DNA from: Kaustia mangrovi
GTDB lineage: Bacteria > Pseudomonadota > Alphaproteobacteria > Rhizobiales > Im1
Direction: 5' to 3'
Length of the DNA: 64,000 nucleotides
Assembly: GCF_015482775.1 (NCBI RefSeq)
Contig: NZ_CP058214.1
Location: forward strand, 2,002,272-2,066,271
The notes under the pieces were generated by a model that did not search any database, had not been told where the DNA came from, and worked only from the letters and a program-made list of their open reading frames with translations. A program made the translations under genes and the position numbers. Shown here piece by piece: positions 4,682 to 28,748 of the stretch. The stretch's first letter is position 1, and each line of letters begins with the position of its first letter.

Positions 4682-4719
4682 AAGCCCCTCGCGCCCGTCA
4701 CGGCGCGCCGGCGGGGCTT
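4682..4719. terminator. Possible bidirectional terminator between convergent genes
   Basis: AAGCCCC (4682-4688) can pair with GGGGCTT (4713-4719), with an inner GCGC/GCGC pairing, and the plus strand runs into CTTTCC. It lies between the end of glpD and the end of the convergent ABC ATPase gene and overlaps that gene's last codons. The U-run is short, so this is tentative. Confidence 0.35.
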
Positions 4720-6350: not shown

Positions 6351-6366
6351 GTCGGTCTCCCTCTCA

Positions 6367-7305
6367 TCAGTGCTCATCGCGAAGCCCGCTCGTCTTGTGG
6401 AGGAACCAGTCGACGACGAAGTTCACCGCGACCGTCAGGAGCGCAATCGCGCCCGCCGGCAGGAGCGGCGTGATATCGCCATAGGTGATGAGCGTGGCGT
6501 TGTCGCGCACCATGGAGCCCCAGTCCGCCGTCGGCGGCTGGATGCCGAGCCCCAGGAAGCTCAGGGCGGAGATCAGCAGGAAGACGAAGCAGAAGCGCAG
6601 CCCGAACTCGGCCACCAGCGGCGGCAGGATGTTGGGCAGGATCTCGCGGCCCATGATCCAGCCGAGGCCCTCGCCCCTCAGCCGCGCTGCCTCCACGAAG
6701 TCCATCACCGCGACATTCATGCCGACGGCGCGGGCCAGACGGAAGACGCGGGTGGAATCGAGCACCGCGATGACGATGATGAGCACGGGAATGGAGGTGC
6801 CGAAGATGGTGAGCAGCAGGAGCGCGAAGATGAGCTGAGGGATCGCCATCAGCACATCCACGATGCGCGCGAGCGCCTGGTCGACCCAGCCCGCGACCGC
6901 GGCGGCCATGAGCCCCGCCGCGCCGCCGATCAGGAAGGCGAGGCAGGTCGTCATGAAGGCGATGCCGATCGTGTTGCGCGCGCCGTAGATCAGGCGGGTG
7001 AACATGTCCCGGCCGAGATTGTCCGTGCCGAGCATGAAGGCGCCGCCCCAGGGCTCGAACTCCATCCCGACGATCTCCGATTCGCCATACGGGGTGAGCA
7101 GGGGGGCGAACAGCGCCACGAACACATAGACGAGGATCACCGCAAGGCCGATCTTGGCCGTCCACGGCGCCCGCAGGAACTCGCGTCCCATCACGGCCCA
7201 GCGCGACCGGCGCTCGGGCGGGGCCTGCTCGATGATCAGTTCCTCGTCTTCCGGAATGCCGCGTTCGGGCGCGTGCGGCACTGGGCCCGTCGCGTCGTCG
7301 CTCAT
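6367..7305 (-). CDS. Dipeptide/oligopeptide ABC transporter permease (DppC type)
   Basis: 312 residues, inner membrane. After a cytoplasmic leader of about 60 residues come six helices. The sequence LGTDNLGRDMFTRLIYGARN marks the start of the BPD-transp-1 domain and is diagnostic of the DppC/OppC subfamily. The EAA-loop region that docks with the ATPase (around FVEAARLRGEGLG) is present. The ATG at 7305 overlaps the stop of the upstream DppB-type gene by four bases, implying translational coupling. Substrate must be inferred from the binding protein and is unknown. Confidence 0.92.
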   Translation of the reverse strand: MSDDATGPVPHAPERGIPEDEELIIEQAPPERRSRWAVMGREFLRAPWTAKIGLAVILVYVFVALFAPLLTPYGESEIVGMEFEPWGGAFMLGTDNLGRDMFTRLIYGARNTIGIAFMTTCLAFLIGGAAGLMAAAVAGWVDQALARIVDVLMAIPQLIFALLLLTIFGTSIPVLIIVIAVLDSTRVFRLARAVGMNVAVMDFVEAARLRGEGLGWIMGREILPNILPPLVAEFGLRFCFVFLLISALSFLGLGIQPPTADWGSMVRDNATLITYGDITPLLPAGAIALLTVAVNFVVDWFLHKTSGLRDEH

Positions 7306-8258
7306 CTGGGATGCAAAAGCCTCGGATTGGTGACGATGGAAAGGATGTCGGCGGTGAGGTTCAGGAGGATGTAGGTCGCCGCGAAGATCAGGCTGCAGGC
7401 CTGCACCACGGGGATATCGCGCTTCTGCACGGAATCGACCATGAGCTGGCCGAGCCCGGGATAGACGAACACCACCTCGACCACCACCACGCCGACCACG
7501 AGATAGGCGAGGCTCAGCACCACCACATTGATGATCGGCGCAAGCGCGTTGGGCAGGGCGTGGTGCACGATGATGCGCGAACGCGAGATGCCCTTGAGCG
7601 TCGCCATCTCGATATAGGGGCTCGCCAGCAGGTTGATGATCGCCGCGCGCGTCATGCGCATCATGTGGGCGACCACGACCAGCGTCAGCGTGAAGGCGGG
7701 CAGCGCCACGCGGTAGACGCGTTCCCACAGGGGTTCCCCCGGATCGACATTGGACAGGCTCGGAAACCAGCCCGCCTGCACCGAGAGGAACAGGATCAGG
7801 ATATAGGCGATGAAGAATTCGGGGAACGAGATCGACGACAGGGTGACGATATTGATCGTCCTGTCGAACAGGCTGTTGCGATAGAGCGCGGCGAGCAGGC
7901 CGAGCGCAAGCGCCAGCGGCACAGCGATCAGCGCCGTGACGGTGGCCAGGAACAGCGTGTTGAGGAGCCGGCCGCCGATCAGCTCGGCAATGTCGCGGCC
8001 ATTGGCGAGCGAGCGCCCGAAATCGCCGTGCACCACGCCCCACAGCCAGTCGAGATAGCGGATATGCATCGGCAGGTCGAGGCCAAGCGAACGCCGGAAC
8101 GCGGCGACCGTCTCGGGCGTCGCCGTCTGGCCGAGGATCTCCGTGGCGATGTCGCCGGGGAGGAGCTCGACCCCCAGAAAGATGATCAGCGACACGATCC
8201 ACAGTGTGAGGAGGCCCAGAGCCAGTCTCTGGGCCACCAGTTTTGCGAGCTTGTTCAT
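7302..8258 (-). CDS. Dipeptide/oligopeptide ABC transporter permease (DppB type)
   Basis: 318 residues. The N-terminal helix followed by an extended periplasmic segment with the QYLDW-like motif IRYLDWLWGVVHGDFGRS is the standard DppB/OppB layout, and six helices follow. An EAA-loop-like segment (ATLKGISRSRIIVHHALPN) contacts the ATPase. It is the second gene of the operon, 25 bp after the binding-protein stop, and its stop overlaps the next start (ATGA). It forms the heterodimeric channel with the 6367-7305 product. Confidence 0.92.
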   Translation of the reverse strand: MNKLAKLVAQRLALGLLTLWIVSLIIFLGVELLPGDIATEILGQTATPETVAAFRRSLGLDLPMHIRYLDWLWGVVHGDFGRSLANGRDIAELIGGRLLNTLFLATVTALIAVPLALALGLLAALYRNSLFDRTINIVTLSSISFPEFFIAYILILFLSVQAGWFPSLSNVDPGEPLWERVYRVALPAFTLTLVVVAHMMRMTRAAIINLLASPYIEMATLKGISRSRIIVHHALPNALAPIINVVVLSLAYLVVGVVVVEVVFVYPGLGQLMVDSVQKRDIPVVQACSLIFAATYILLNLTADILSIVTNPRLLHPR

Positions 8259-8283
8259 GAGCCGTCCGGTTCGCCGATCCCGA

Positions 8284-9879
8284 TCACGTCTCCTTGAACC
8301 ACCAGCGCTCCGCCGCGCGTAGGCCGTCCATGTCCCAGTTCGTGCCGATCTCGTCGTGGCCGACGGTCTTGGCCAGTGCGTTCACATAGGAGGCGAACAT
8401 CGGCACGACGGTCCCGCCGTCGTCGCGCACGAGCCCCTGCATTTCCGCGTACATCTCGCCGCGCTTGGCCTCGTCGAGCTCGGAACGGGCGGCGACGAGC
8501 AGTTCGTTGAAGCGCGGGTTCATCCAGTGCGTATCGTTCCAGTTGGCATCCGCCGCATAGGCCTGGGAGAACATCCAGTCCGGGGTCGGGCGGCCGGACC
8601 AGTAGCACATGCACCACGGCTTCTTCATCCAGACGTTTTCCCAGTACCCGTCGGACGGCTCGCGCACGACATTGATGTCGATGCCCGCCGGGGCGGCGTG
8701 CTCCCGGTAGAGCACCGCAGCGTCGACGGCGCCGGCGAAGGCGGCGTCGGAGGCCGACAGGTTGACGCTGAGCGAGTCGAGACCGGCCTGCTTGAGGTGA
8801 TATTTCGCCTTGTCCGGATCGTACTGGCGCTGCTCGAGGTCCTTGGCGAAATAGCGGTCGTTCGGGCTGATCGGATGGTCGTTGCCGACCTCGCCATAGC
8901 CGCGCAGGATCGTCTCGACGAGCTTCTCGCGGTCGACGCCGTATTTGAGCGCGAGGCGCACATTCACATCGTCGAAGGGCGCGACATCCACCAGCATGGG
9001 CACCGTGTAGTGCTGGCTGCCGGTTACCGACAGAACATCGACATTGGGATTGCGCTTGAGCAGGTGCACCGTCTTCAGGTCGCACCGGTCCATGGCGTGT
9101 ATCTCGCCGGTGCTCAGCGCGTTGGTGCGCGCGGCGACGTCCTTGATCGCCAGGAACTCCACGGAGTCGAACCAGCCCCGGCCCTCCTTCCAGTAGTCCG
9201 GATTGCGCGTCACATTGGCCTTCACGCCATACTCGATATTCTCGAGCACGAAGGCGCCGCAGCCCACGCCGGAGGAGGGATCCTCCACCTTGCCGTCCTT
9301 CGACGGCATGATGGCGAGGTGGTAGTCCGACATCAGGAACGGGAAGTCGGCATTGCCGCCCTTGAGGGTGAACACCACCTTGGCCTTGCCGTCGGCCTTG
9401 ATGTCCTCGATCGGATCGACGATGCCCTTGGCCGCCGATTTGGAGTCCTCGCCGCGATGGTGGTTGATCGAGGCGACGACATCCCCCGCCTCCAGAGTCT
9501 TGCCGTTATGGAAGGTGACGCCGTCGCGCAGCGTGAAGGTCCATACCTTCGCGTCCGGCGAGGCTTCCCAGTCCTGCGCGAGCGCACCGATGAGCTCGCC
9601 GGTATTGGACACCTCCGTCAGATAACCGTGCACCGAGTGGCCCACCGACTGCATGTAGGTGTCGAGATAGGTCGCAGGATCGAGGGAATCGGTGGTCGAG
9701 CCCGCGCCGATACCCATCTTGAAATGGCCGCCCTTGGAAGGCGCAGCCTTGGCCGCGCCGGAGAACATCGTCGACGCGGCCGCGGTCGTCACGCCCGCCG
9801 CGGCGGCGGCGACGATGAACTCGCGCCTGGAGATCGCGCCCGATCGCGCCAGCGCCTTCAGGGTTTCATATTCCGACAT
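8284..9879 (-). CDS. Peptide-type ABC transporter substrate-binding protein (SBP family 5), Tat-exported
   Basis: 531 residues from the ATG at 9879, which has GGGAGG seven bases upstream; a GTG two codons earlier abuts that ribosome site and is less likely. The leader carries a twin-arginine motif SRREFIV (about 17-23) followed by an Ala-rich hydrophobic stretch, so export through Tat as a folded protein is expected. The body has the family 5 hallmarks: a WTFTLRDGVTFHNGK segment and a long two-lobed periplasmic domain. It heads the operon with the two permeases and the double ATPase. The ligand is not predictable from sequence; members bind peptides, opines, glycosides and amines. Confidence 0.9.
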   Translation of the reverse strand: MSEYETLKALARSGAISRREFIVAAAAAGVTTAAASTMFSGAAKAAPSKGGHFKMGIGAGSTTDSLDPATYLDTYMQSVGHSVHGYLTEVSNTGELIGALAQDWEASPDAKVWTFTLRDGVTFHNGKTLEAGDVVASINHHRGEDSKSAAKGIVDPIEDIKADGKAKVVFTLKGGNADFPFLMSDYHLAIMPSKDGKVEDPSSGVGCGAFVLENIEYGVKANVTRNPDYWKEGRGWFDSVEFLAIKDVAARTNALSTGEIHAMDRCDLKTVHLLKRNPNVDVLSVTGSQHYTVPMLVDVAPFDDVNVRLALKYGVDREKLVETILRGYGEVGNDHPISPNDRYFAKDLEQRQYDPDKAKYHLKQAGLDSLSVNLSASDAAFAGAVDAAVLYREHAAPAGIDINVVREPSDGYWENVWMKKPWCMCYWSGRPTPDWMFSQAYAADANWNDTHWMNPRFNELLVAARSELDEAKRGEMYAEMQGLVRDDGGTVVPMFASYVNALAKTVGHDEIGTNWDMDGLRAAERWWFKET

Positions 9880-9885
9880 GCTCAC

Positions 9886-10259: not shown

Positions 10260-11042
10260 CTATTTTCCTGTCCATACGGGGGCGCGCTTTTCTGCGAAGG
10301 CGCGGAATCCCTCCTTGTTGTCGTCTGACTCGTAGAGCTCGTCGACTGTGCGGAACTGGCGCTTGGTGATCCAGTTCATCGCCTCCTGGAACGTCATCGC
10401 CTCCGCCGCGCGCGCCACCTCCTTGATCGCGGCGAAGACGAGCGGCGGACCGCTCTCCAGCAGCCGCGCCACCTCCCAGACACGCGCCTCCAGGCGGTCC
10501 TCGGCGAGCACCTCGTTGACGAGCCCCCAGCGATGGGCCTCCGCGGCATCCATCCAGCGCCCGGTCAGCAGAAGGTCCATGGCGATATGATAGGGCATGC
10601 GCTTTGGCAGCTTGACGGTGGCGGCGTCCGCCAGCGTTCCCGCCCGGATCTCCGGAAGGGCGAAACTCGAATGCTCCGCCGCATAGATCAGGTCGCAGGA
10701 CAGCGCCAGCTCGAACCCGCCGCCGACGGCCATGCCGTTCACCGCCGCGATCACGGGCTTGTTCATGTCGCGCAGCTCCTGGAGCCCGCCGAAGCCGCCG
10801 ACGCCGTAATCGCCGTCGACCGCATCGCCGGAGGCGGCCGCCTTGAGGTCCCAGCCGGCGGAGAAGAACTTGGAGCCCGCCGTGCGCACGATGGCAACGC
10901 GCAGCTCGCGGTCGTCGCGAAAGGCCTTGAAGGTCTCGCCCATCGCCCGCGAGGTCGCAAGGTCGATGGCGTTCGCCTTGGGCCGGTCGAGGGTCACTTC
11001 CAGAATGCCGCCCTCGCGGCGTGTTCCGATCACATCCGTCAC
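10260..11042 (-). CDS. caiD: Carnitinyl-CoA dehydratase / crotonobetainyl-CoA hydratase-like enoyl-CoA hydratase
   Basis: 260 residues from a GTG at 11042, with GGAGGAGG seven to fourteen bases upstream and a four-base overlap (GTGA) with the preceding gene; the length equals E. coli CaiD (261). Close resemblance to CaiD runs through the protein: LDRPKANAID, FFSAGWDLKAA and the oxyanion/catalytic region GGGFELALSCDL with SFALPEIRAG, keeping both glutamates expected in this crotonase. It would interconvert crotonobetainyl-CoA and L-carnitinyl-CoA. It is the last gene of an operon with a CoA ligase, an acyl-CoA dehydrogenase, carnitine dehydrogenase and a beta-keto acid cleavage enzyme, which supports the carnitine assignment rather than general beta-oxidation. 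Confidence 0.82.
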   Translation of the reverse strand: MTDVIGTRREGGILEVTLDRPKANAIDLATSRAMGETFKAFRDDRELRVAIVRTAGSKFFSAGWDLKAAASGDAVDGDYGVGGFGGLQELRDMNKPVIAAVNGMAVGGGFELALSCDLIYAAEHSSFALPEIRAGTLADAATVKLPKRMPYHIAMDLLLTGRWMDAAEAHRWGLVNEVLAEDRLEARVWEVARLLESGPPLVFAAIKEVARAAEAMTFQEAMNWITKRQFRTVDELYESDDNKEGFRAFAEKRAPVWTGK

Positions 11043-13108
11043 GGACCGTCCTCCTCCATTACGATCAGCGCATCGGCGATCCACGCGCCCTTGCCGCGCG
11101 GACAGACGATGAGCGGATTGATGTCCATCTCCGCAAGGCTCGCGGCATGGCGCACGGCAAAGTCCGCGATGCCTTCGAGCGCGGTCACGGCGGCCTCGAC
11201 ATCCGCCTGCATACGGCCGCGATAGCCATCCATGAGCGCGAACAGCTTCAGCGACCGCAGGGCCTCCTCGATCTCCGCCCGCGTCGCCGGCAGGAGCAGG
11301 GTGCGGCTGTCGGCGAGCAACTCGACCAGCACGCCCCCCGACCCGACGGTCATGACGGGACCGAATTGCGGATCGCCCGTCACACCGGCGATGAGCTCGG
11401 CCAGGCCGTCCTCCACCATGCGCTCGACGAGGAAGCCCGAGCCGAGCCCCTCAAGGGCCGACGCTGCCGCCTCCACCTCGTCCCGCGTGCGCAGGTTCAG
11501 GCGCACCGCGCCGCGCTCCGACTTGTGGGCAAGCCCCAGCGCCTTGACCGCGACCGGGTAGCCCACGATCTCGGAGGCGGCGATCGCCTCCGCGACGGTC
11601 GCCGCGCGCTGGCCGGGGGCGACCGGAAGCGCGCTGGCGGCCAATCTCTCCTTCGCCTCGTCCTCATCGAGCGCCGACGGTCCGCACGGGCCCTTTCGGT
11701 TGACGGCGACGACAGGGTCGGCCGGAGGTCGCCGCCAGGCCGCACCGATCTCCGCGGCCGCCTCCACCGCGTCGAGCGCCTCCGTAAAGCCGCTCAGGGG
11801 CACGACGCCGCGCTCCATGATCGCCGCGCAGTAGCCCTCCGGCAGGTTCTCCGGCATGCTCGCCACTATGGCGCCCCTGGCTCCATTGGCCTCGAGCGCG
11901 GCCGCGAAGGCGTCGACGGCGCTCTGCCACTCCGTGTCGAGGCAGCGGTCACCCCGCGGAAAATCGAGCAGCAGGAAATTGAAGTCGAACCCGCCGGAGA
12001 CGAAGGCCCCGAAGGTCTTCTCCATCGCCGGCCGGTCGTCCCAGATGAAGGTGTGGTAGTCGAGCGGATTGGCGATGGCCACGAGCGGGCCCAGCGTTTC
12101 CGCCACACGCGCGCGATGTTCCGGCGCGAGCGGCCGGAACCGGGCGCGCCGCCCCGCCGCATGGTCGGCCATCAGGGCCGCCTCCCCGCCCGAGCAGCTC
12201 ATGGAGGACACCGACAGACCGTCGAGCGGACCCGCCACATGCAGGAGCTTCAGCGTCTCCAGAAAGGCGGGCATGGACTGCACGCGCGCAATGCCGAGAC
12301 GCCTCAGGAACGCGTCCGCCGCCGCGTCGCTGCCGGCCAGCGACGCCGTGTGGGAAACCGCCGCCTCGCGGGCGAGCTCGGAACGGCCCATCTTCATAGC
12401 GACCACCGGCTTGCCGAGCGCGCGGGCCCGCGCGGCCAGCCGTTCGAACCCCTGAACGCTGTCGAAGGCCTCGATATGAAGACCGAGGACCGAGACGCGC
12501 TCGTCCTCGATCAGGCCGAGCGCCATCTCCGACAGTCCCGTCTGGGCCTGGTTGCCGGCAGTCATCACATAGGCGAGCGGAAGTCCGCGCGCCTGCATGG
12601 TCATGTTGACGGCGATATTGGAGGATTGCGTGACGATAGCCGCGCCGCGCCCGCCTTCGCGAAGGCGCACACCGCCATGCTGGTCGGGCCACAGAAGGGC
12701 GCCGTCGCAGTAATTGATCACGCCATAGCAGTTCGGCCCGACGATCGGCATGGGCCCGGCCGCCTCCAGCAACGCGGCGTCCAGCGCCTCGCCGGATTGC
12801 GCTTCGCCCGCCTCCCTGAAACCGGACGCGAAGCAGACCGCACCGCCCGCCCCGCGCTCGCGGAGGTCGCGCACGATTTCCACGGTCAGGTGCCGGTTGA
12901 CGCCGACGAAGGCCGCATCGGGTGCGCCCGGCAGCTCCGCGACGGAGCGGTAGGTCTTCAGGCCCTCCACCTCCTCGCGGGAGGGATGGACCGGCCAGAT
13001 TTCGCCCGCAAAGCCCATCTTCAGCGACTGGCGCACGGCGGCCGCCGCCTGCGCGCCGCCGAAGACGGCAATGGTTCTGGGTCTGAGAAGCCGGTCGAGC
13101 CTGCCCAT
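11039..13108 (-). CDS. Acyl-CoA synthetase, NDP-forming (acetate-CoA ligase family), probably betaine-activating
   Basis: 689 residues; start ATG at 13108 with CGGAG upstream. Order of parts: a CoA-binding Rossmann domain (VFGGAQ, about 12-130), succinyl-CoA-synthetase-like domains with GPNCYGVINY and the phosphohistidine-type motif SHTASLAG (about 255), then an ATP-grasp domain (about 470-689) with VAVKALGLAHKSERGAVRL. Such fused enzymes make an acyl-CoA from acid, CoA and ATP, releasing ADP and phosphate through a phosphohistidine. Sitting between acyl-CoA dehydrogenase and caiD, it is the obvious candidate to activate gamma-butyrobetaine, crotonobetaine or carnitine, in place of the AMP-forming CaiC of E. 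coli. The substrate is inferred from context. Confidence 0.8.
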   Translation of the reverse strand: MGRLDRLLRPRTIAVFGGAQAAAAVRQSLKMGFAGEIWPVHPSREEVEGLKTYRSVAELPGAPDAAFVGVNRHLTVEIVRDLRERGAGGAVCFASGFREAGEAQSGEALDAALLEAAGPMPIVGPNCYGVINYCDGALLWPDQHGGVRLREGGRGAAIVTQSSNIAVNMTMQARGLPLAYVMTAGNQAQTGLSEMALGLIEDERVSVLGLHIEAFDSVQGFERLAARARALGKPVVAMKMGRSELAREAAVSHTASLAGSDAAADAFLRRLGIARVQSMPAFLETLKLLHVAGPLDGLSVSSMSCSGGEAALMADHAAGRRARFRPLAPEHRARVAETLGPLVAIANPLDYHTFIWDDRPAMEKTFGAFVSGGFDFNFLLLDFPRGDRCLDTEWQSAVDAFAAALEANGARGAIVASMPENLPEGYCAAIMERGVVPLSGFTEALDAVEAAAEIGAAWRRPPADPVVAVNRKGPCGPSALDEDEAKERLAASALPVAPGQRAATVAEAIAASEIVGYPVAVKALGLAHKSERGAVRLNLRTRDEVEAAASALEGLGSGFLVERMVEDGLAELIAGVTGDPQFGPVMTVGSGGVLVELLADSRTLLLPATRAEIEEALRSLKLFALMDGYRGRMQADVEAAVTALEGIADFAVRHAASLAEMDINPLIVCPRGKGAWIADALIVMEEDGP

Positions 13109-13111
13109 GGC

Positions 13112-14275
13112 TTATGCTCCGAGCGGTCTCAGCAACGCGCGGGAGATGATATGGCGCTGGATCTCGCTCGTCCCCTCCCAGATGCGCTCGATGCGCGCGT
13201 CGCGCCAGATACGCTCCAGCGGCAGCTCGTCCATGAGCCCCATGCCACCATGGATCTGGATCGCCTCGTCGGCGACCATGGCGAGCATCTCCGTCGCCTT
13301 GAGCTTGGCCATGGCCATGTCGGAATCGGTGACGGTGCCCTGGTCGTATTTCCACCCGGCCTCGAGCACCATGAGCTCCGCCGCCTTCATCTCCGTCGCC
13401 ATGTCGGCGAGCTTGAAGGAGACACCCTGGAACTTGCCGATGGGCTGGTTGAACTGATGCCGCGTCGCCGCCCAGTCGACCGCATGGGCCATGGCGCGTT
13501 CGGCGCGGCCGAGGCAGGTGGCGGCCACCTGCAGCCGCGTCGCGCCGAGCCAGGAATTGGCCACCTCGAAGCCCTTGTGGACCTCGCCGAGCACGGCATC
13601 CTCCGGCACGCGGCAATCGTCGAAGGTCAGGATGGCGTTGGTGTAGCCGCGATGGGAGACATTGCGGTAGCCGGCACTCACCTCGAAGCCCGGACGATCC
13701 TTGTCAACGAAGAAGGCCGTGATCCGCTTGCGGGGGCCGCGCGGCGTCTCCTCCTCGCCGGTCGCGGCGAACAGGATGGTGAAGTCGGCCTCCTCGGCAT
13801 GGCTGATGAAATGCTTGGTGCCGTTGATCACCCAGTCGGAGCCATCGCGCACCGCGGTCGTCTTCATGCCGCGCAGGTCGGAGCCCGCGCCGGGCTCCGT
13901 CATCGCCAGGCAATCGGCCTTCTCGCCGCGAACGCAGGGGAAGAGATACTTCTCCCTCTGTTCGGGCGTCCCGGCCATGAGGATGTTCGACGGCCTCGCC
14001 ACGCAGGTCCAGTGGAGCGCGTAGTTCGCCCGGCCGAGCTCCTTCTCGTAGAGCAGCCAGGTGAGCGTATCGAGGCCCGCGCCGCCCGCCTCCTCCGGCA
14101 TGTTGGCGGCATAGAGCCCGGCCTCGATGGCCTTGGCCTTGAGTTCCTCGACGAGCTCCGGCCTGAGCCGGCCCGTGCGCTCCACCTCCATCTCGTGGGG
14201 ATAGAGCTCGTTCTCCACGAAGGCACGGGTCGTCTCGACGATCAGGCGCTGTTCTTCCGTCAGTGCGAAATCCAT
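13112..14275 (-). CDS. Acyl-CoA dehydrogenase, probably gamma-butyrobetainyl-CoA / crotonobetainyl-CoA specific
   Basis: 387 residues from the ATG at 14275 (GGAGTGAGG upstream). Typical acyl-CoA dehydrogenase fold: all-helical N-terminus, the FAD-contacting motif CLAMTEPGAGSDLRGMKT (about 120-137), the beta domain, and the C-terminal IQIHGGMGLMDELPLERIWRD segment with the region that supplies the catalytic base in this family. E. coli CaiA, of similar size, catalyses crotonobetainyl-CoA reduction; the reverse direction would desaturate gamma-butyrobetainyl-CoA. Three bases separate it from the CoA ligase gene and seven from carnitine dehydrogenase. No electron-transfer flavoprotein genes are in the operon, so the housekeeping ETF would be used. 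Substrate is inferred. Confidence 0.82.
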   Translation of the reverse strand: MDFALTEEQRLIVETTRAFVENELYPHEMEVERTGRLRPELVEELKAKAIEAGLYAANMPEEAGGAGLDTLTWLLYEKELGRANYALHWTCVARPSNILMAGTPEQREKYLFPCVRGEKADCLAMTEPGAGSDLRGMKTTAVRDGSDWVINGTKHFISHAEEADFTILFAATGEEETPRGPRKRITAFFVDKDRPGFEVSAGYRNVSHRGYTNAILTFDDCRVPEDAVLGEVHKGFEVANSWLGATRLQVAATCLGRAERAMAHAVDWAATRHQFNQPIGKFQGVSFKLADMATEMKAAELMVLEAGWKYDQGTVTDSDMAMAKLKATEMLAMVADEAIQIHGGMGLMDELPLERIWRDARIERIWEGTSEIQRHIISRALLRPLGA

Positions 14276-14282
14276 CGCCGCC

Positions 14283-15296
14283 TCACTCCGCTTCGCGTTT
14301 GGCCGCGGCATCGGCAAGGGCTGTCTCATAGGCGGCGAGCGTCCGGCCCGCGCCCCAGTCATTGCCCTTCAATGCCTTCATGATCGCCACCAGATTGTCG
14401 TCGCGCGCCTGTTCGAGCTCGCGGATCGAGAGATGGCCGGACTGGTCGTCCGACTGTCCGGCAATGAGTTCGACGAGTTCGTCGTCGAAGTCGGGCACGT
14501 CGGTGAGCCGCGTCCACGGCCATTTGAGACAGGGGCCGAACTGCGCCAGGAAATGGCGCATGCCCGCCTCGCCGCCAGCGACCCGATAGGTCTCGAACAG
14601 GCCCATCTGCGCCCACCGAAGCCCGAAGCCGTAGCGGATGGCGTCGTCGACCTCCTCCGTCGTGGCAACCCCGTCCTTCACGAGCCACAGCGCCTCGCGC
14701 CAGACCGCCTCCAGCATCCGGTCGGCGACGAAGGCCTCGATCTCCTTGCGGATACGCAAGGGCTTCATGCCGAGCGAGGCGATGAACGCCATGGCCTCCT
14801 CCACCGCTTCGGGCGCCGTGCGCTCGCCGGCGACGACCTCCACGAGCGGCAGGAGATAGACCGGGTTGAAGGGATGGGCCACGAGCAGGCGCCCGGGCGT
14901 CGCCATGGCCTCCTGCAGATCGCTCGGCATAATGCCGGAGGTCGAGGACGCGATGATCGTTTCCCCGGACGCGGCCGCCTCGATCTCGGCATAGACGGCA
15001 TGCTTGATGTCGACGCGCTCGGGCACAGCCTCCACGATCCAGCCCGCATCGGCCACGGCCTCCGCGATGCTCTTCGCATGGGTGATCGTGCCGGCGGGCG
15101 GCAGGGGCGCGGAAGTGAGCCTGTCATAGGCGCGCCGGGCGTTGGCGAGCACCGCCGCGACCTTCTCCTCCGCATCGGGTGCGGGATCGTAGATGGCGAC
15201 ATCGATGCCGTTGAAGGCGAGACGGGCGACCCAGCCCGCCCCGATCACGCCGCCGCCGATGCAGGCGGCCTTGTCGATTGGTCTCACCGCGGTCAC
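14283..15296 (-). CDS. lcdH: L-carnitine dehydrogenase (3-hydroxyacyl-CoA dehydrogenase family)
   Basis: 337 residues from a GTG at 15296 that overlaps the upstream stop by four bases (GTGA). NAD motif CIGGGVIGAGWVARLAFNG (about 10-28) is followed by EAVPERVDIK, SSTSGIMPSDL and HPFNPVYLLPLVEVV, the string that separates carnitine dehydrogenases from ordinary 3-hydroxyacyl-CoA dehydrogenases. It oxidises L-carnitine to 3-dehydrocarnitine with NAD+. In some bacteria a thioesterase domain is fused at the C-terminus; here the protein stops at the basic length. It lies directly after the beta-keto acid cleavage enzyme gene, whose product would consume its unstable product. Confidence 0.9.
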   Translation of the reverse strand: MTAVRPIDKAACIGGGVIGAGWVARLAFNGIDVAIYDPAPDAEEKVAAVLANARRAYDRLTSAPLPPAGTITHAKSIAEAVADAGWIVEAVPERVDIKHAVYAEIEAAASGETIIASSTSGIMPSDLQEAMATPGRLLVAHPFNPVYLLPLVEVVAGERTAPEAVEEAMAFIASLGMKPLRIRKEIEAFVADRMLEAVWREALWLVKDGVATTEEVDDAIRYGFGLRWAQMGLFETYRVAGGEAGMRHFLAQFGPCLKWPWTRLTDVPDFDDELVELIAGQSDDQSGHLSIRELEQARDDNLVAIMKALKGNDWGAGRTLAAYETALADAAAKREAE

Positions 15297-16198
15297 CAGC
15301 GCCTGACGAGCTTCATCTTCTCGCGGACCTCGTCCGGTCCCATGATCCGGCAGCCCATACCCTGCGCGGTCTTCACCGCCTGCTCGGTGAGCTGGCCGTT
15401 GGTCGCGAGAACGCCCTTCTTCAGCCAGATATTGTCCTCCAGCCCGACCCGGATATTGCCGCCGGCAAGCACCGCCATCGCGGCATAGGGAAGCTGATTG
15501 CGGCCGATGGAGAAGGCGGAGAACGTCCAGTCCTCCGGCAGGTTGGCGACGAGCGACATGAGCGTCGGGATATCGTCCGGCGCGCCCCAGGGAATGCCCA
15601 TGCACAGCTGCACCATGACCGGATCGTCGAGAAGGCCCTGTCCGTGGAGCCACTTGGCAAGCAACAGATGCCCGGTATCGAAGACCTCCACCTCAGGCCG
15701 GACACCGAGCTCCTTGATGCGTCCGGCCATCGCCTGGAGCATGGAGGGCGTGTTGGTCATCACATAGCCGCCCTCGCCGAAATTCATCGTGCCGCAATCG
15801 AGCGTGCAGATTTCCGGCAGGATCCGCGCCACATGCTCGAGCCGGGCTTCCGCGCCGATCATGTCGGTGCCCTCATCCGCCGGCGGCAAAGGCTGTTCCA
15901 CGGAGCCGAGCGTCAGGTCGCCGCCCATGCCGGCGGTGAGGTTCAGGACCATGTCGACGCCCGAGGCCTTGATGTGCTCCACGACTTCCTCGTAGAGCGC
16001 CACCTCGCGGGACGGCTTGCCGGTCTCGGGATCGCGCACATGGATATGGGTTATGGCGGCGCCGGCCTGCGCGGCCTCGATGCAGGCATCGGCGATCTGG
16101 CGCGGCGTGACAGGCACCTTGTCGGAGCGGCCCGTCGAATCGCCCGAACCGGTCACGGCACAGGTGATGAAGACATCGCGGCTCGGTGTGAGGCCCAT
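15293..16198 (-). CDS. Beta-keto acid cleavage enzyme (BKACE, DUF849), likely 3-dehydrocarnitine cleavage
   Basis: 301 residues from the ATG at 16198, which has AGGAGGG about 11 bases upstream; longer in-frame extensions run into the divergent promoter. The metal-binding signature ITHIHVRDPETGKPSRE (about 45-61) and the later motifs LDCGTMNFG and EVEVFDTGHL identify the BKACE family, Zn-dependent TIM barrels that split a beta-keto acid using acetyl-CoA. With carnitine dehydrogenase next to it, the natural substrate is 3-dehydrocarnitine, giving glycine betaine and acetoacetyl-CoA. It is the first gene of the operon and is divergent from the regulator gene at 16279. Confidence 0.88.
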   Translation of the reverse strand: MGLTPSRDVFITCAVTGSGDSTGRSDKVPVTPRQIADACIEAAQAGAAITHIHVRDPETGKPSREVALYEEVVEHIKASGVDMVLNLTAGMGGDLTLGSVEQPLPPADEGTDMIGAEARLEHVARILPEICTLDCGTMNFGEGGYVMTNTPSMLQAMAGRIKELGVRPEVEVFDTGHLLLAKWLHGQGLLDDPVMVQLCMGIPWGAPDDIPTLMSLVANLPEDWTFSAFSIGRNQLPYAAMAVLAGGNIRVGLEDNIWLKKGVLATNGQLTEQAVKTAQGMGCRIMGPDEVREKMKLVRRW

Positions 16199-16278
16199 GG
16201 CTTGCTGTCCCTCCTGTTGGCTTTCCCCAAGATCATGTCGGACTTGCGTCTCGATGCTTTGCGAATTACGAAATAATA
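16199..16278. promoter_or_regulatory. Divergent promoter region of the carnitine operon and its regulator gene
   Basis: These 80 bases separate the BKACE gene (minus) from the GlxA/AraC-type regulator (plus). The half near the regulator is AT-rich (TTTGCGAATTACGAAATAATA, ending at the ATG), unlike the GC-rich coding sequence, and is the place to look for a regulator site. I could not define an operator with confidence. Confidence 0.4.
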
Positions 16279-17259
16279 ATGACACTTTACGAAAAAGAAC
16301 CAATCTTCGTCGCGGATTCCTCGCCGATCGCGGTGACGTTCCTCGTCTGCTCCGGCCTGTCGGTCATGTGTGTCGCCTCCGCGCTCGACCCGATTCGGGC
16401 TGCCAACCGGATCGCCGGACGGCAGGTCTTCTCCTGGCGCATCGTGTCCCTCGACGGCGAGCCCGCGATGACCACCTGCGGCCTACCTATCGCCGTCGAC
16501 GGCGCCTTCGACCCGACCGCGCCGTCGGACATCTTCGCGATCATCGCCGGCTTCGGCGCGGATGTCCTCACCGAAAGCACCGTCCTCGCCGGCATCCGGA
16601 AGGCGGCGGCTTCCGCCCGCATGGCCGGCGGCATCGAGGCGGGCACCTGGATCCTCGCCCGCACCGGCCTGCTCGACGGCCACGCCGCCACCACCCATTG
16701 GGAAGATTTCGAGGAGTTCGCGACAACCTTTCCGGAGATCCGCTTCCGGCCCGACCGCTATGTGGTCGACGGCAATTTCTTCACCGCCGGCGGGGCCTCG
16801 CCGACCTTCGACCTCATGCTGCACCTCATCCGCACCCGGCTCGGCATCGCCACCGCGCTCGATGTCTCCAGCGTCTTCATCTATGACGAGGCGCGCGCGG
16901 CGGGCGACGCCCAGCCGCTCGTCTCGCTCGGCCGGCTCGATGCCTACGACCCCCGCCTCGCCGGCGCGGTCAGGATGATGGAGGCGACTGTCGACGCGCC
17001 GCTCACCACCGCGGCCATCGCCACACGGCAGGGCATCACCGCGCGCACTCTGGAGACCCTGTTCAGGCAGGCGCTCGGCGAAACGCCCGGAGCCTATTAT
17101 CTGAGGTTGCGGCTGAACGCGGCGCGGCGGCTTGTGCGCGATTCACGCATTCCGCTCGCCGACATCGCCGCGCGCACGGGCTTCTCCTCCGCCGCCTCCT
17201 TCACCCGCGCCTTCCGCAAGGCCTTCGGCACAAGCCCCAGCGCATTGCGCCGAAAATAG
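16279..17259 (+). CDS. GlxA/CdhR-type transcriptional regulator (DJ-1/GATase1-like sensor + AraC HTH)
   Basis: 326 residues. The N-terminal two-thirds (about 15-190) is a DJ-1/PfpI-like domain of the GlxA group; GGIEAGTWILARTGLLDG is the segment where the nucleophile-elbow Cys of true amidotransferases is lacking, as usual for regulators. The C-terminal 100 residues are an AraC/XylS double helix-turn-helix (TTAAIATRQGITARTLETLF and IAARTGFSSAASFTRAFRKA). Pseudomonas CdhR, which activates carnitine dehydrogenase genes, has this architecture and the same divergent position, so a carnitine-responsive activator is the best reading. Ligand and site are not shown by the sequence. Confidence 0.85.
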   Translation: MTLYEKEPIFVADSSPIAVTFLVCSGLSVMCVASALDPIRAANRIAGRQVFSWRIVSLDGEPAMTTCGLPIAVDGAFDPTAPSDIFAIIAGFGADVLTESTVLAGIRKAAASARMAGGIEAGTWILARTGLLDGHAATTHWEDFEEFATTFPEIRFRPDRYVVDGNFFTAGGASPTFDLMLHLIRTRLGIATALDVSSVFIYDEARAAGDAQPLVSLGRLDAYDPRLAGAVRMMEATVDAPLTTAAIATRQGITARTLETLFRQALGETPGAYYLRLRLNAARRLVRDSRIPLADIAARTGFSSAASFTRAFRKAFGTSPSALRRK

Positions 17260-17293: not shown

Positions 17294-17731
17294 TCACAGC
17301 CGCGCCTTCGTGCTGCGCGGCGTTGCCAGCAGCAGGCTCGTCTCGCTGCCGGTAATGCCCGGAATGAGGCGGACCCGGCGCAGCACGGCATCGAACTCCG
17401 CGAGCGACGACGTCCCGAGCTCGGCCACGAGGTCCCACCGGCCATTGGTCGTGTGCACGGTCGCCACCTCGGGGAACCCCCCAAGGGCGGAGATCACGCG
17501 GTCGGCGGCATGACCCTCGACCGCGATCAGCATGATGCCGCGCACCGCCTGGTCGACCGCATCGGCCCGCAGGATGACCGTGTAGCCGACGATCTCGCCC
17601 GCCCGTTCCAGGCGTTCCATGCGCGAACGCACCGTCGCCCGGGAAACGCCGAGCGCCAAGGCGAGATCGGAGATGCTGCGCCGCGCATCGTGGCGCAGGA
17701 GCGTGACGAGCTTCTCGTCGAGAGAGTCCAT
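17294..17731 (-). CDS. Lrp/AsnC family transcriptional regulator
   Basis: 145 residues from the ATG at 17731; a GTG five codons upstream is possible but neither start has a clear ribosome site. The N-terminal helix-turn-helix (MDSLDEKLVTLLRHDARRSI, then LGVSRATVRSRMERLERAG) and the C-terminal alpha/beta ligand-binding RAM domain give the standard Lrp layout and length. It is transcribed away from arginase and ornithine cyclodeaminase genes, so control of arginine catabolism in response to an amino acid is likely. An imperfect inverted repeat lies in the shared gap (17784-17803). Confidence 0.88.
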   Translation of the reverse strand: MDSLDEKLVTLLRHDARRSISDLALALGVSRATVRSRMERLERAGEIVGYTVILRADAVDQAVRGIMLIAVEGHAADRVISALGGFPEVATVHTTNGRWDLVAELGTSSLAEFDAVLRRVRLIPGITGSETSLLLATPRSTKARL

Positions 17732-17783
17732 GTCCGAACTATTCACTCAAAACGGCAGCGTATTACTCCATAATGATAAGCCT

Positions 17784-17803
17784 ATTCGGCATTTTTGCCA
17801 AAT
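17784..17803. promoter_or_regulatory. Candidate Lrp-type operator between regulator and arginase genes
   Basis: ATTCGGCA (17784-17791) and TGCCAAAT (17796-17803) are inverted repeats with one mismatch around TTTT. The element sits in an AT-rich part of the 144-base divergent gap, a typical place and base composition for an Lrp/AsnC site. Binding is inferred from position only. Confidence 0.4.
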
Positions 17804-17875
17804 TCGACCGTTCACTTTGCCGCCGCCCCGGGGTTCGATGAACCATAGCTTTTGCAAACCGGGACAGTGTTGCCG

Positions 17876-18811
17876 ATGCATTGCACGATCATCGATGCCC
17901 CCGTTCGGGACGGCGCCGGTCGAGCGGGCTGCGACATGGGGCCGGGCGCGCTGCGCGCAGCCGGACTTATCGACGCGATTTCCGGCCTCGGCCACCGTGT
18001 CGCCGACGCAGGACGGATCGAGCGGCGCCCGCTCCGCGCCATCTCTCACGGCAATACGGCGCTTAAGGCCCTGCCGGAGATCGCGGCCTGGACGGAAGCG
18101 CTGTCGGAAGCCGCCTACGCGGCGAGCGACGGCGCCATGCCCATCTTTCTCGGCGGCGACCATTCGATCTCGGCGGGAACGCTTGCCGGCCTCGCCCGGC
18201 GCGCGCAGACCGCCGGGAGACCGCTCTTCGTGCTGTGGCTCGACGCCCATCCCGACTTCCACACGCTCGAGACGACAACGAGCGGCAATCTTCACGGCAT
18301 CCCGCTCGCCTATGCCGCCGGACGGCCGGGCTTTGCCGGCTATCTTCCCGACCTTCCGGCGACCGTCGATCCCGAGCGCATCTGCCTGTTCGGCATCCGC
18401 AGCGTCGACCCTGCCGAGCGCGACGCGCTTAACGCCGCCCGCGTCACCGTCCACGACATGCGCGCCATCCGCCGGCATGGCGCCGCAACGCCCATCGGCG
18501 ACTTTCTCGCCCGCATCGCCCGCGAGGACGGGCTTCTCCATGTCAGCCTCGACGTGGATTTCCTCGACCCCGGGATCGCACCCGCCGTCGGGACCGCGGT
18601 GCCCGGCGGCGCGACCCTCGACGAGGCCCGTCTCGTCATGGCGCTGCTGTCGCAGGCAGGCCTCGTGACGAGCCTCGATCTCGTCGAGCTCAATCCCGTC
18701 CTCGACGGGGACGGCCGCACGGCGAGGCTGATCGTCGACCTCGTCGCAGACCTCATGGGCCGCCGCATCGAGCGCCGCCCCGCCACCGCCCGCCCCACAA
18801 GGAGTTTCTGA
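17876..18811 (+). CDS. rocF: Arginase / agmatinase-ureohydrolase family, most likely arginase
   Basis: 311 residues from the ATG at 17876; an upstream in-frame TTG (17852) is less likely because MHCTIIDAP already begins the first strand. All metal and substrate motifs of the binuclear Mn ureohydrolases are present: GGDHS, DAHPDFHT (usual DAHxDxxT) with SGNLHGIPL, SLDVDFLDP and the GTAVPGG loop. The SGNxHG-type substrate loop and the partner ornithine cyclodeaminase favour L-arginine to L-ornithine plus urea. Two bases separate it from the next gene. The divergent Lrp-type gene is the probable regulator. Confidence 0.9.
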   Translation: MHCTIIDAPVRDGAGRAGCDMGPGALRAAGLIDAISGLGHRVADAGRIERRPLRAISHGNTALKALPEIAAWTEALSEAAYAASDGAMPIFLGGDHSISAGTLAGLARRAQTAGRPLFVLWLDAHPDFHTLETTTSGNLHGIPLAYAAGRPGFAGYLPDLPATVDPERICLFGIRSVDPAERDALNAARVTVHDMRAIRRHGAATPIGDFLARIAREDGLLHVSLDVDFLDPGIAPAVGTAVPGGATLDEARLVMALLSQAGLVTSLDLVELNPVLDGDGRTARLIVDLVADLMGRRIERRPATARPTRSF

Positions 18812-18813
18812 TC

Positions 18814-19890
18814 ATGGCCCATGCGCCTTCCGAGCTCGCCCTCGTCCCCTTCGTCAGCGTGGAGAACATGATGCGGATCGTCCATGCGGTCGGCATCGAG
18901 CGCTTTCTCGCCGAGCTTGCCGGCTATATCGAGGAGGATTTCCGGCGCTGGGAGCGCTTCGACAAGACGCCGCGCATCGCCTCCCATTCGCGCGAGGGCG
19001 TGATCGAGCTGATGCCCACCAGCGACGGCGAGGCCTATGGCTTCAAATATGTCAACGGCCATCCCAGGAACACGCGGGACGGTCGCCAGACCGTCACCGC
19101 CTTCGGCGTCATGGCCGGCGTCGACAACGGCTATCCCGTGCTCATCTCGGAAATGACCATCCTCACCGCCCTGCGCACCGCGGCGATGTCGGCGCTCGCG
19201 GCGAAGCATCTCGCGCCGCCGTCCGCGCGCACCATGGCGATCATCGGCAATGGCGCGCAGTCGGAGTTCCAGGCGCTCGCCTTCGGAGCGCTCCTCGGCA
19301 TCGACCGGGTCAGGCTCCACGATATCGACCGCTCGGCCAGCGAGCGCTGCGCACGCAACCTCGCGGGCCGCGGCATCGACCTGTCGATTTGCGCCACACC
19401 GCAGGAGGCGGTGGAGGGCGCCGACATCGTCACCACCGTCACCGCCGACAAGCAATATGCGACGATTCTGACCGACAACATGGTCGGATCGGGGCTTCAC
19501 ATCAACGCCGTGGGCGGCGACTGCCCGGGCAAGACGGAGCTCCATCCCGATATCCTGAAGCGCTCCGGGATCTTCGTCGAATACCCCCCGCAGACGCGGA
19601 TCGAGGGCGAGATCCAGCAGCTCGACCCCGACCATCCGGTCACCGAGCTGTGGCAGGTCATCGCCGGTACGGCGCCCGGACGCACGGCACGCGAGCAGAT
19701 CACGCTGTTCGATTCCGTGGGCTTCGCGGTGGAGGATTTCTCCGCCCTTCGCTATGTCCGCGCGCTTCTCGAGACGGTTCCCCATTTCGACGCGCTCGAC
19801 CTGCTCGCCGACCCGGACGACCCGCGTGACCTGTTCGGCATGGTGATGCGTGCCGCATCGCCCGCCCCTCGCGCCGCCAACGGAATCTGA
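18814..19890 (+). CDS. Ornithine cyclodeaminase (mu-crystallin family)
   Basis: 358 residues, the usual length for bacterial ornithine cyclodeaminase (about 350). The NAD-binding motif IIGNGAQSEFQALAF (about 145-160), TALRTAAMSALAAKHLA and INAVGGDCPGKTELHPDIL (with the Asp expected for catalysis) are diagnostic. It converts L-ornithine to L-proline and ammonium with NAD+ recycled in the site. AAGGAG precedes the start, inside the end of the arginase gene, and the two genes are almost contiguous, giving an arginine to ornithine to proline unit. Confidence 0.92.
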   Translation: MAHAPSELALVPFVSVENMMRIVHAVGIERFLAELAGYIEEDFRRWERFDKTPRIASHSREGVIELMPTSDGEAYGFKYVNGHPRNTRDGRQTVTAFGVMAGVDNGYPVLISEMTILTALRTAAMSALAAKHLAPPSARTMAIIGNGAQSEFQALAFGALLGIDRVRLHDIDRSASERCARNLAGRGIDLSICATPQEAVEGADIVTTVTADKQYATILTDNMVGSGLHINAVGGDCPGKTELHPDILKRSGIFVEYPPQTRIEGEIQQLDPDHPVTELWQVIAGTAPGRTAREQITLFDSVGFAVEDFSALRYVRALLETVPHFDALDLLADPDDPRDLFGMVMRAASPAPRAANGI

Positions 19891-25090: not shown

Positions 25091-25103
25091 GCCCCGGCAC
25101 TCC

Positions 25104-25991: not shown

Positions 25992-26001
25992 CGCTTCCTC
26001 C

Positions 26002-26952: not shown

Positions 26953-26977
26953 GGCTGTCGTCTCCCAAGGACATGAC

Positions 26978-27001
26978 GGGGCCCGGCGCGAGCCGGGCCC
27001 C
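26978..27001 (-). repeat. Perfect intergenic hairpin between binding-protein and permease genes
   Basis: GGGGCCCGGC (26978-26987) pairs with GCCGGGCCCC (26992-27001) around GCGA. In the minus-strand mRNA it lies 11 bases after the binding-protein stop. There is no U-run, so it is more likely an RNA-stabilising or partly terminating element, like those between the binding-protein and permease genes of other importer operons, than a full terminator. Confidence 0.6.
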
Positions 27002-27012
27002 GATTGGGGCCG

Positions 27013-28683: not shown

Positions 28684-28748
28684 CTCAACCTCCTCTCCAC
28701 TTGTCCAGTGCCCCCTGTTGACGATCCGCCTTCTTTCGCGGGCGGATT

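Follow-up and report, generated by a model that had tools for sequence, protein, structure and literature searches.

A putative operon for gamma-butyrobetaine and carnitine catabolism with an NDP-forming acyl-CoA synthetase in Kaustia mangrovi

In other bacteria, trimethylamine can be the end product of gamma-butyrobetaine (GBB) and carnitine. In E. coli, fix genes are linked to the cai genes, and CaiC is a ligase of the AMP-forming type. In P. aeruginosa, thioesterase activity is supplied by cdhB. Acetoacetate is one of the two products of BKACE. Lonza patents may reportedly describe bbu genes of strain HK1349. According to the available passages of PMC3546705 and PMC2131755, strains HK4 and HK13 convert GBB to L-carnitine, which is processed onward via L-carnitine dehydrogenase, and Kulla 1991, as cited in the former, ascribes the conversion in HK4 to CoA chemistry. 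However, Table 2 of PMC2131755, as far as that paper is available, places the HK strains under GBB hydroxylase activity, at odds with its own text. An Arctic SAR11 island contains GBB dioxygenase, carnitine dehydrogenase, BKACE, acyl-CoA thioesterase, and a glycine betaine ABC transporter (PMC12421898, excerpt), and the S. meliloti dehydrogenase is given as dual-function in the accessible part of PMC12482172. A literature search, with subscription journals and patents outside its reach, found no paper on the gene cluster described here.

In this study, we analysed a stretch of 64,000 nucleotides (the window) from contig NZ_CP058214.1 of K. mangrovi. Domain profiles and NCBIfam matched all six families exactly where the initial annotation had placed them (Table 1). 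The genes form a tight operon beside a divergent AraC/GlxA-type regulator, the start of which lies 80 bases from that of BKACE. The junctions, previously described as overlapping or 3-7 bases long, were measured as 4-base overlaps (BKACE/CDH and ligase/CaiD) and gaps of 7 bases (CDH-ACAD) and 3 bases (ACAD-ligase), with the gene starts chosen among several in-frame candidates. BKACE adjoins CDH, and the divergent regulator is of the CdhR type, as in aerobic carnitine-to-betaine operons; the best NCBIfam match of the regulator is GbdR, with 210 bits against a cut-off of 480. A promoter and terminator scan gave no signal clearly exceeding shuffled sequence.

Table 1. Genes of the locus and of the adjoining transporter, with their assignments and proposed roles
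Feature	Coordinates	Strand	Assignment or proposed role
CdhR/GbdR-like regulator	16279-17259	+	DJ-1/PfpI + AraC HTH
BKACE	15293-16198	-	PF05853, 318 bits
Carnitine 3-dehydrogenase (CDH), 337 aa	14283-15296	-	PRK07531, 572 bits
Acyl-CoA dehydrogenase (ACAD)	13112-14275	-	domain match; proposed gamma-butyrobetainyl-CoA to crotonobetainyl-CoA
NDP-forming acyl-CoA synthetase, DddX-like	11039-13108	-	CoA_binding_2, Succ_CoA_lig, ATP-grasp_5; proposed gamma-butyrobetaine/crotonobetaine:CoA ligase
CaiD-like crotonase	10260-11042	-	PRK03580, 303 bits; proposed crotonobetainyl-CoA hydratase giving L-carnitinyl-CoA
ABC substrate-binding protein, peptide/nickel (Dpp/Opp/Nik) type	8284-9885	-	proposed betaine uptake
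ABC permease 1	7302-8258	-	
ABC permease 2	6367-7305	-	
ABC ATP-binding protein, two nucleotide-binding halves	4698-6377	-	

Judged from its sequence, the locus is probably an aerobic catabolic operon for GBB, crotonobetaine, and carnitine that ends at glycine betaine. In the proposed route, a betaine would be imported by the Dpp-type ABC transporter, the ATP-dependent NDP-forming ligase would make gamma-butyrobetainyl-CoA via a phosphohistidine, ACAD would convert this to crotonobetainyl-CoA, and CaiD would add water to give L-carnitinyl-CoA. Carnitine would be freed by a thioesterase or by the reversed ligase and converted by CDH to 3-dehydrocarnitine, which, together with acetyl-CoA, BKACE would turn into betainyl-CoA and acetoacetate. 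Finally, glycine betaine would be freed by the ligase or by a thioesterase coded elsewhere (candidate G000:C1:752019-752474). We infer all substrates, the direction of the CoA branch, the transporter cargo, and both release steps. It had been proposed that CDH and BKACE yield glycine betaine and acetoacetyl-CoA from carnitine, but BKACE makes betainyl-CoA (PMC12482172, in the part available), and therefore two thioesters need opening in the route.

A search for the same gene order in relatives, suggested in the initial annotation, showed that 72 of 80 named relatives' loci, selected by ligase similarity, contain the six genes in that order. Such conservation indicates that the arrangement is not due to chance. 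Among the remaining eight loci, six begin or stop at the end of a contig, including L071, which in addition shows no CaiD downstream, and two (L067 and L070) are variants. Across the 72 full loci, BKACE is 60-81% and ACAD 62-88% identical (except in L098, with an ACAD of 50%), and a regulator homologue of 33-66% identity occupies the same place. The cluster is kept in many rhizobia, and homologues on a Rhizobium plasmid are annotated as carnitine 3-dehydrogenase and carnitinyl-CoA dehydratase, the latter being 74% identical to the crotonase. In most Mesorhizobium loci, an HD-domain gene sits between BKACE and CDH. An HD-domain oxygenase step was considered and rejected, as this Mesorhizobium gene has no match in the Kaustia genome at E 1e-10.

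The locus combines two modules which are also found apart, ligase with ACAD and CaiD, and CDH with BKACE (and in some cases a thioesterase). With own rows and dehydrogenase rows weaker than E 1e-73 excluded, a dehydrogenase lies within 9 kb of the ligase in 58 of 88 ligase matches from the taxonomic order, namely in 56/66 of the best ligase rows versus 2/22 of the weakest. Six of the ten unlinked loci among these 66 best rows were inspected (L187-L192), and all six have ACAD and a CaiD homologue beside the ligase and none has a BKACE match near it. Nine loci with a fused thioesterase and no ligase within 9 kb (L212 and L215-L222) contain BKACE, dehydrogenase, and thioesterase in every case, and an ACAD or CaiD match in none. 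Thus, gene content and linkage support the joining of the CoA branch to the CDH/BKACE branch in this locus. The earlier suggestion that the former feeds the latter holds insofar as modules separate elsewhere are joined here; its oxidative direction is presumed.

The ABC transporter (4698-9885) follows CaiD, and in 28 of the 80 named loci a substrate-binding protein and permeases follow CaiD on the same strand, accompanied in 27 of these by the ATP-binding protein. For this reason the transporter probably belongs to the functional unit, which would then be larger than six genes. Its cargo is not fixed by this association, since the transporter also adjoins ligase-less carnitine modules (L219 and L221), and the flanking regions of loci titled Mesorhizobium, covered for up to 10 kb, gave no match to it.

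The ligase has the CoA-binding, ligase, and ATP-grasp domains and the phosphohistidine of the NDP-forming acyl-CoA synthetase superfamily. Among the structural matches listed for its predicted fold, most of which lie within residues 1-460, DddX (PDB 7cm9) is the top one, aligning over the full length with TM 0.88 and Z 38.5 despite 26% identity, and by sequence it ranks second (1.3e-58) to 4-hydroxybutyrate--CoA ligase (1.3e-59). In an alignment whose genes were called by a longest-ORF/GC-position heuristic that is wrong in places, the phosphohistidine His253 is present in 134/134 ligases, the window copy (L001) included, and Glu213 and His528 are likewise invariant. Of 110 window-type ligases (L001 included), 107-110 retain each of Trp140, Tyr351, Trp356, and Trp394. 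These aromatics do not prove an onium substrate, because Trp140 and Trp356 are also kept in paralogues of 40% identity (a set of 12 sequences, ten paralogues and two close relatives, L209 and L210). The DddX residues Trp391 (cation-pi), Phe435, and Glu432 (the proposed base) correspond in the alignment to His352, Trp394, and Asp391 of the ligase, the last of which is variable in its relatives. DddX, an ATP-dependent DMSP lyase, resembles the window ligase in its full-length fold, its phosphohistidine, and its activation of an onium acid (in the window, a proposed substrate); unlike the proposed ligase reaction, it eliminates DMS after activation.

Ligases of 37-42% identity occur in parallel clusters that also contain ACAD (9 of 10 loci), BKACE (7/10), CDH (6/10), and CaiD-like homologues, and thus the gene logic appears to have been adapted to several substrates or contexts. 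From these clusters it might be supposed that the ligase trio serves another 4-substituted butyrate and shares only its regulation with carnitine breakdown. We regard this as unlikely, given that the trio is linked to CDH in most of the best ligase matches and kept together in 72 of the 80 named loci, and that the crotonase matches no family better than CaiD. The CaiD family (NF002936/PRK03580) ranks first of 73 families, although its 303 bits fall below the cut-off of 500.

The best NCBIfam match of CDH is NF005716/PRK07531 (572.1 bits, below the cut-off of 592). CDH covers positions 4-335 of the 495 in this model; positions 336-495 have no counterpart, and CDH is without the fused C-terminal 4HBT_2 thioesterase, whereas dehydrogenase homologues in 34 of the 80 named loci carry a fused thioesterase. 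Among window ORFs of at least 90 aa, no profile match was found for a betainyl-CoA thioesterase, either fused or in the operon, and the window has no match to a CaiB-type transferase. The reported absence of both enzymes is therefore true of the window but not of the genome, which has five CoA_transf_3 matches and seven 4HBT_2 stretches elsewhere. A thioesterase-free genome was rejected, since a stand-alone homologue (G000:C1:752019-752474), about 1.26 Mb from the locus, matches the profile at E 2.1e-46. This homologue falls in a general clade including genomes without the dehydrogenase (midpoint-rooted FastTree). By visual inspection, none of its neighbours is a carnitine gene, with genes called by the above heuristic, which here chose the reverse strand over the thioesterase itself, so its role is that of a candidate only. 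A second dehydrogenase-like match (G000:C1:3173696-3174625) has no ligase, BKACE, ACAD, or CaiD match adjoining it.

We compared genomes by fusion state, keeping the own row and excluding weaker dehydrogenase rows. A stand-alone thioesterase match is present in 36/36 fusion-less genomes (one of which, G114, is of uncertain class, its dehydrogenase being cut by a contig end) versus at least 26/50 genomes with the fusion, not counting the fused copy; these numbers are per-genome totals minus fused copies, drawn from a match table that reaches down to about E 2e-47 with up to 9 candidates scored per genome, and are hence lower bounds. By genus and fusion state, the values are 15/15 versus at least 19/35 (p 0.0009, phylogeny being handled by genus collapse alone, as for the other p value). 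A thioesterase profile match is also found in at least 90 of 311 genomes without this dehydrogenase. The ligase is present in 34/36 fusion-less genomes versus 32/50 with the fusion (40%-identity paralogues not counted; G024, 42%, counted), and by genus in 14/15 versus 22/35 (p 0.04). The ligase as a universal thioesterase replacement was rejected, because those 32 genomes carry both. In thioesterase-less operons, a reversible ligase could conceivably charge GBB, discharge carnitinyl-CoA and betainyl-CoA, and regain ATP. The ligase distribution fits such a triple role, but the stand-alone homologue in all 36 fusion-less genomes opposes it, and we consider it rather unlikely. If true, a single NDP-forming ligase would shuttle CoA between three betaines, and GBB would be converted to glycine betaine at no net ATP cost for CoA chemistry.

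CDH belongs to the 3-hydroxyacyl-CoA dehydrogenase superfamily, and so it may be asked whether the route is instead a beta-oxidation at the CoA level, where the dehydrogenase acts on L-carnitinyl-CoA, a thiolase from elsewhere cleaves 3-dehydrocarnitinyl-CoA to betainyl-CoA and acetyl-CoA, and BKACE serves only external carnitine. This would sidestep the release of carnitinyl-CoA, a step without an evident enzyme in the locus, and the genome has nine thiolase-domain matches. However, none of the nine is in the window, CDH is closest to free-carnitine dehydrogenases, and it is paired with BKACE whether or not the ligase trio is present, which makes this route quite improbable.

Its family score places ACAD outside the CaiA orthologues (NF002885, 194.5 bits, cut-off 540) and nearer to acryloyl-CoA reductase (NF042972, 307 bits, also below its cut-off of 640). 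One ETF pair was found in the genome, about 0.7 Mb from the locus, and no second, Fix-type ETF. A CoA branch running reductively from carnitine to GBB as an electron sink, as in E. coli Cai, is extremely improbable, for although the three activities are the same in kind as CaiC, CaiD, and CaiA, it would work against the carnitine oxidation encoded by that very operon, and the CaiA score, the distant single ETF pair, and the lack of a CaiB match in the window all speak against it.

For the favoured oxidative route to glycine betaine, the first half is already known from industrial carnitine strains, and what is of some interest is the unusual ligase together with the absence of a local thioesterase. 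The locus provides candidate genes, among them those for an NDP-forming betaine ligase and an importer, for an industrial L-carnitine route known, from the available text, as physiology. The missing thioesterase raises the question whether the ligase recovers thioester energy. A trimethylamine-free route in many rhizobia would also bear on soil nitrogen cycling.

The claim that the locus joins two pathways usually described apart is true of the modules, which occur apart elsewhere, but the combination is not wholly new, in view of HK4/HK13 (PMC3546705, PMC2131755) and SAR11 (PMC12421898), as far as these sources are available. The Rhizobium/Agrobacterium-like strains HK4, HK13, and HK1349 belong to a similar bacterial group and share the CoA thioester, desaturation, hydration to L-carnitine, and L-carnitine dehydrogenase, but the accessible text describes them as physiology, without sequences, ligase class, transporter, release enzyme, BKACE, or glycine betaine. 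The SAR11 island, in the excerpt available, likewise has a single locus that links GBB use to carnitine dehydrogenase and BKACE, with a dioxygenase in place of the CoA branch and the thioesterase within the island. BKACE, carnitine dehydrogenase, and a divergent CdhR-type regulator are common to the carnitine operons of S. meliloti and P. aeruginosa (PMC5806209, PMC12482172, available parts). Those sets (CDH-thioesterase or cdhCAB) include thioesterase activity, whereas the window dehydrogenase has none and its operon contains ligase, ACAD, and CaiD in addition. The caiTABCDE set of E. coli has a CaiD-like hydratase, an ACAD, and a CoA ligase for the same betaines (proposed substrates in the window), but it runs in the opposite direction and uses the CaiB transferase and CaiC instead of an NDP-forming ligase. 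In E. timonensis bbuABCDEF, as given in the available part of PMC8364193, GBB is also handled as a CoA thioester with an ACAD-family enzyme, but anaerobically, with two CoA transferases and trimethylamine elimination.

We found by ORF and family analysis that all six ORFs of the locus proposed in the initial annotation to carry gamma-butyrobetaine to glycine betaine are present in the place described, with the junctions noted there (two 4-base overlaps and gaps of 7 and 3 bases) and with 80 bases between the regulator and the BKACE start. The observation of the locus is confirmed, and its interpretation is partly supported.

Features of the proposed betaine locus and its candidate partners
Feature	Position	Strand	Remark
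BKACE (PF05853 family)	16198-15293	minus	
carnitine dehydrogenase	15296-14283	minus	
acyl-CoA dehydrogenase	14275-13112	minus	
NDP-forming acyl-CoA synthetase (ligase)	13108-11039	minus	
CaiD-like crotonase (CaiD)	11042-10260	minus	
AraC/GlxA-type regulator	16279-17259	plus	
Dpp/Opp/Nik-type ABC transporter	4698-9885	same as CaiD	374-base gap after CaiD
stand-alone thioesterase homologue of the window's genome	G000:C1:752019-752474		

A ligase scan of named genomes gave at least 590 candidate stretches, and all six genes, in the same order, were found in 72 of the best 80 of 534 confirmed loci, a set biased to close relatives and including Mesorhizobium, Rhizobium, Ensifer, Phyllobacterium, Roseovarius, and a gammaproteobacterial symbiont; the search for this gene order elsewhere was among the checks first suggested. 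Extra genes interrupt the order in some loci (L087, L110). Among the eight remaining loci, six are truncated at a contig end; the other two, L067 and L070, have a pair of distant acyl-CoA dehydrogenases. In this variant, to which L210 also belongs (Bradyrhizobium / Sinorhizobium numidicum), ligase and CaiD are accompanied by the two distant enzymes (25-27% identity) in place of the single one. Among 397 genomes of the order, the ligase was found in 73 (E 1e-120) and the carnitine dehydrogenase (hereafter the dehydrogenase) in 92 (E 1e-60). The dehydrogenase lies within 9 kb of the ligase in 58 of 88 ligase matches, own excluded, this linkage holding for 56 of the 66 best ligase rows versus 2 of the 22 weakest.

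Of the 10 ligase loci without this linkage in the group of 66, we read six (L187-L192), which lack the dehydrogenase by choice of set; in all six, ligase, acyl-CoA dehydrogenase, and CaiD homologues are still clustered, and no BKACE match was found nearby (L192 is a 6-kb contig). Nine loci (L212, L215-L222), chosen because their dehydrogenase carries a fused thioesterase and has no ligase in the surrounding 9 kb, all contain BKACE, dehydrogenase, and thioesterase, with an acyl-CoA dehydrogenase or CaiD match in 0/9; other DNA separates BKACE from dehydrogenase in L217, L221, and L222, and L222 stops shortly past the thioesterase. The window operon is the union of two modules which occur apart elsewhere.

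The ABC transporter is found downstream of CaiD on the same strand in 28 of the 80 best ligase loci, and convergent in 3 more. Its homologues also accompany the ligase, acyl-CoA dehydrogenase, and CaiD alone in L191 (63-77% identity) and stand beside carnitine modules lacking this trio in L219 and L221. Because it accompanies CaiD, the lone trio, and carnitine modules, we regard it as a putative betaine importer. A second peptide-type ABC transporter (window 25134-28704), with binding protein and permeases ~22-33% identical to the CaiD-side one, adjoins an ORF (23768-25135) resembling, by eye, an FAD-dependent oxidase. Window 17294-19890 encodes arginase and ornithine cyclodeaminase, both exceeding NCBIfam cut-offs, with a divergent Lrp-type regulator.

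The sequence evidence establishes the identity, order, and conservation of the genes and a predicted fold. In the pathway that we infer, as to substrates, direction, and release steps, gamma-butyrobetaine would be imported, charged to its CoA thioester in an ATP-dependent step, desaturated, and hydrated to L-carnitinyl-CoA; carnitine would then be released from CoA and oxidized to 3-dehydrocarnitine, which BKACE would cleave before glycine betaine is released. The oxidative direction of the CoA branch is favoured by the presence of the dehydrogenase together with BKACE in the operon, by the finding of just one ETF pair genome-wide, and by the description of strain HK4 as converting gamma-butyrobetaine to L-carnitine.

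The closest solved structure to the predicted ligase fold (mean pLDDT 86.9; longest stretch below 50 at residues 243-251, just before the phosphohistidine) is that of the ATP-dependent DMSP lyase DddX, with a TM-score of 0.88 and a Z of 38.5 across 675 residues, the next match having 37.2 over 423. By sequence, DddX is second (1.3e-58 versus 1.3e-59 for 4-hydroxybutyrate--CoA ligase), matching ligase residues 10-677 in one continuous stretch. Ligase His253 aligns with His292 of DddX, a residue at which mutation abolishes DddX activity (PMC8163506), and Trp394 with Phe435, a proposed holder of the sulfonium group; DddX Trp391 aligns with ligase His352, as counted on the sequence alignment. Trp140 and Tyr351 are conserved in 110/110, Trp356 in 109/110, and Trp394 in 107/110 ligases of both locus sets, own copy included. 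Paralogues of 37-42% identity also keep Trp140 and Trp356, in a comparison covering the 110 ligases and these paralogues. As judged from alignment and model, these residues and the fold would fit an onium-acid substrate, and prove none. The paralogues (L199-L208) adjoin acyl-CoA dehydrogenase homologues in 9/10 loci, BKACE in 7/10, carnitine dehydrogenase in 6/10, and CaiD-like crotonases (27-51% identity) in 8/10, perhaps a parallel gene set for another 4-substituted butyrate.

Since the product of BKACE is betainyl-CoA (PMC12482172), two thioesters have to be opened at this locus, that of carnitinyl-CoA and that of betainyl-CoA. The initial annotation saw no dedicated thioesterase, and none was found in the window here either. 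Among the 80 best ligase loci, a C-terminal 4HBT_2 thioesterase is fused to the dehydrogenase in 34, a separate one lies inside the locus in 2, and none was found in 44 (two of these, L071 and L104, without the dehydrogenase stretch). Among the 397 genomes, a stand-alone homologue (E 1e-30) is present in 36/36 with a fusion-less dehydrogenase, 26/50 with a fusion, and 90/311 without this dehydrogenase; by genus, in 15/15 fusion-less versus 19/35 fused. The copy in the window's genome falls in a general thioesterase clade, and its neighbours are unrelated as judged by eye; it is a candidate gap-filler by homology, without a tie to the operon. In L213:9561-11292 and L214:9566-11124, a separate thioesterase, branching apart from the general clade, adjoins a fusion-less dehydrogenase. 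The operon of a Paracoccaceae MAG contains a tandem class III CoA transferase (L087:3812-6328; 838 aa, PF02515 twice), which could supply CoA transfer there.

Other loci carry further genes. An HD-domain protein is encoded between BKACE and the dehydrogenase in L031:7069-7698, other Mesorhizobium loci, and L083:6785-7408; it weakly resembles PhnZ/TmpB oxygenases (TIGR03276 33 bits, far below cut-off; PhnZ 4.6e-5). At E 1e-10, the window's genome gave no match to it. A hormone-sensitive-lipase-type esterase downstream of CaiD (L031:12918-14012, LipP1 216 bits, below cut-off; L056:13070-14011 and L073:12846-13802, assigned by eye) is possibly an acylcarnitine hydrolase, by analogy to hocS.

Our searches of open-licence papers turned up neither this gene set with an NDP-forming ligase, nor its transporter, nor the thioesterase-less form. 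As physiology, the route from gamma-butyrobetaine through carnitine to carnitine dehydrogenase is already known, because the Rhizobium/Agrobacterium-like HK4 is described, in the excerpted sources, with the same chemistry of thioesterification, desaturation, and hydration to L-carnitine (PMC3546705; PMC2131755), although Table 2 of PMC2131755 gives a hydroxylase for HK strains instead. A SAR11 island containing gamma-butyrobetaine dioxygenase, carnitine dehydrogenase, and BKACE, as excerpted from PMC12421898, likewise joins gamma-butyrobetaine use to the latter two enzymes, but does so via the dioxygenase.
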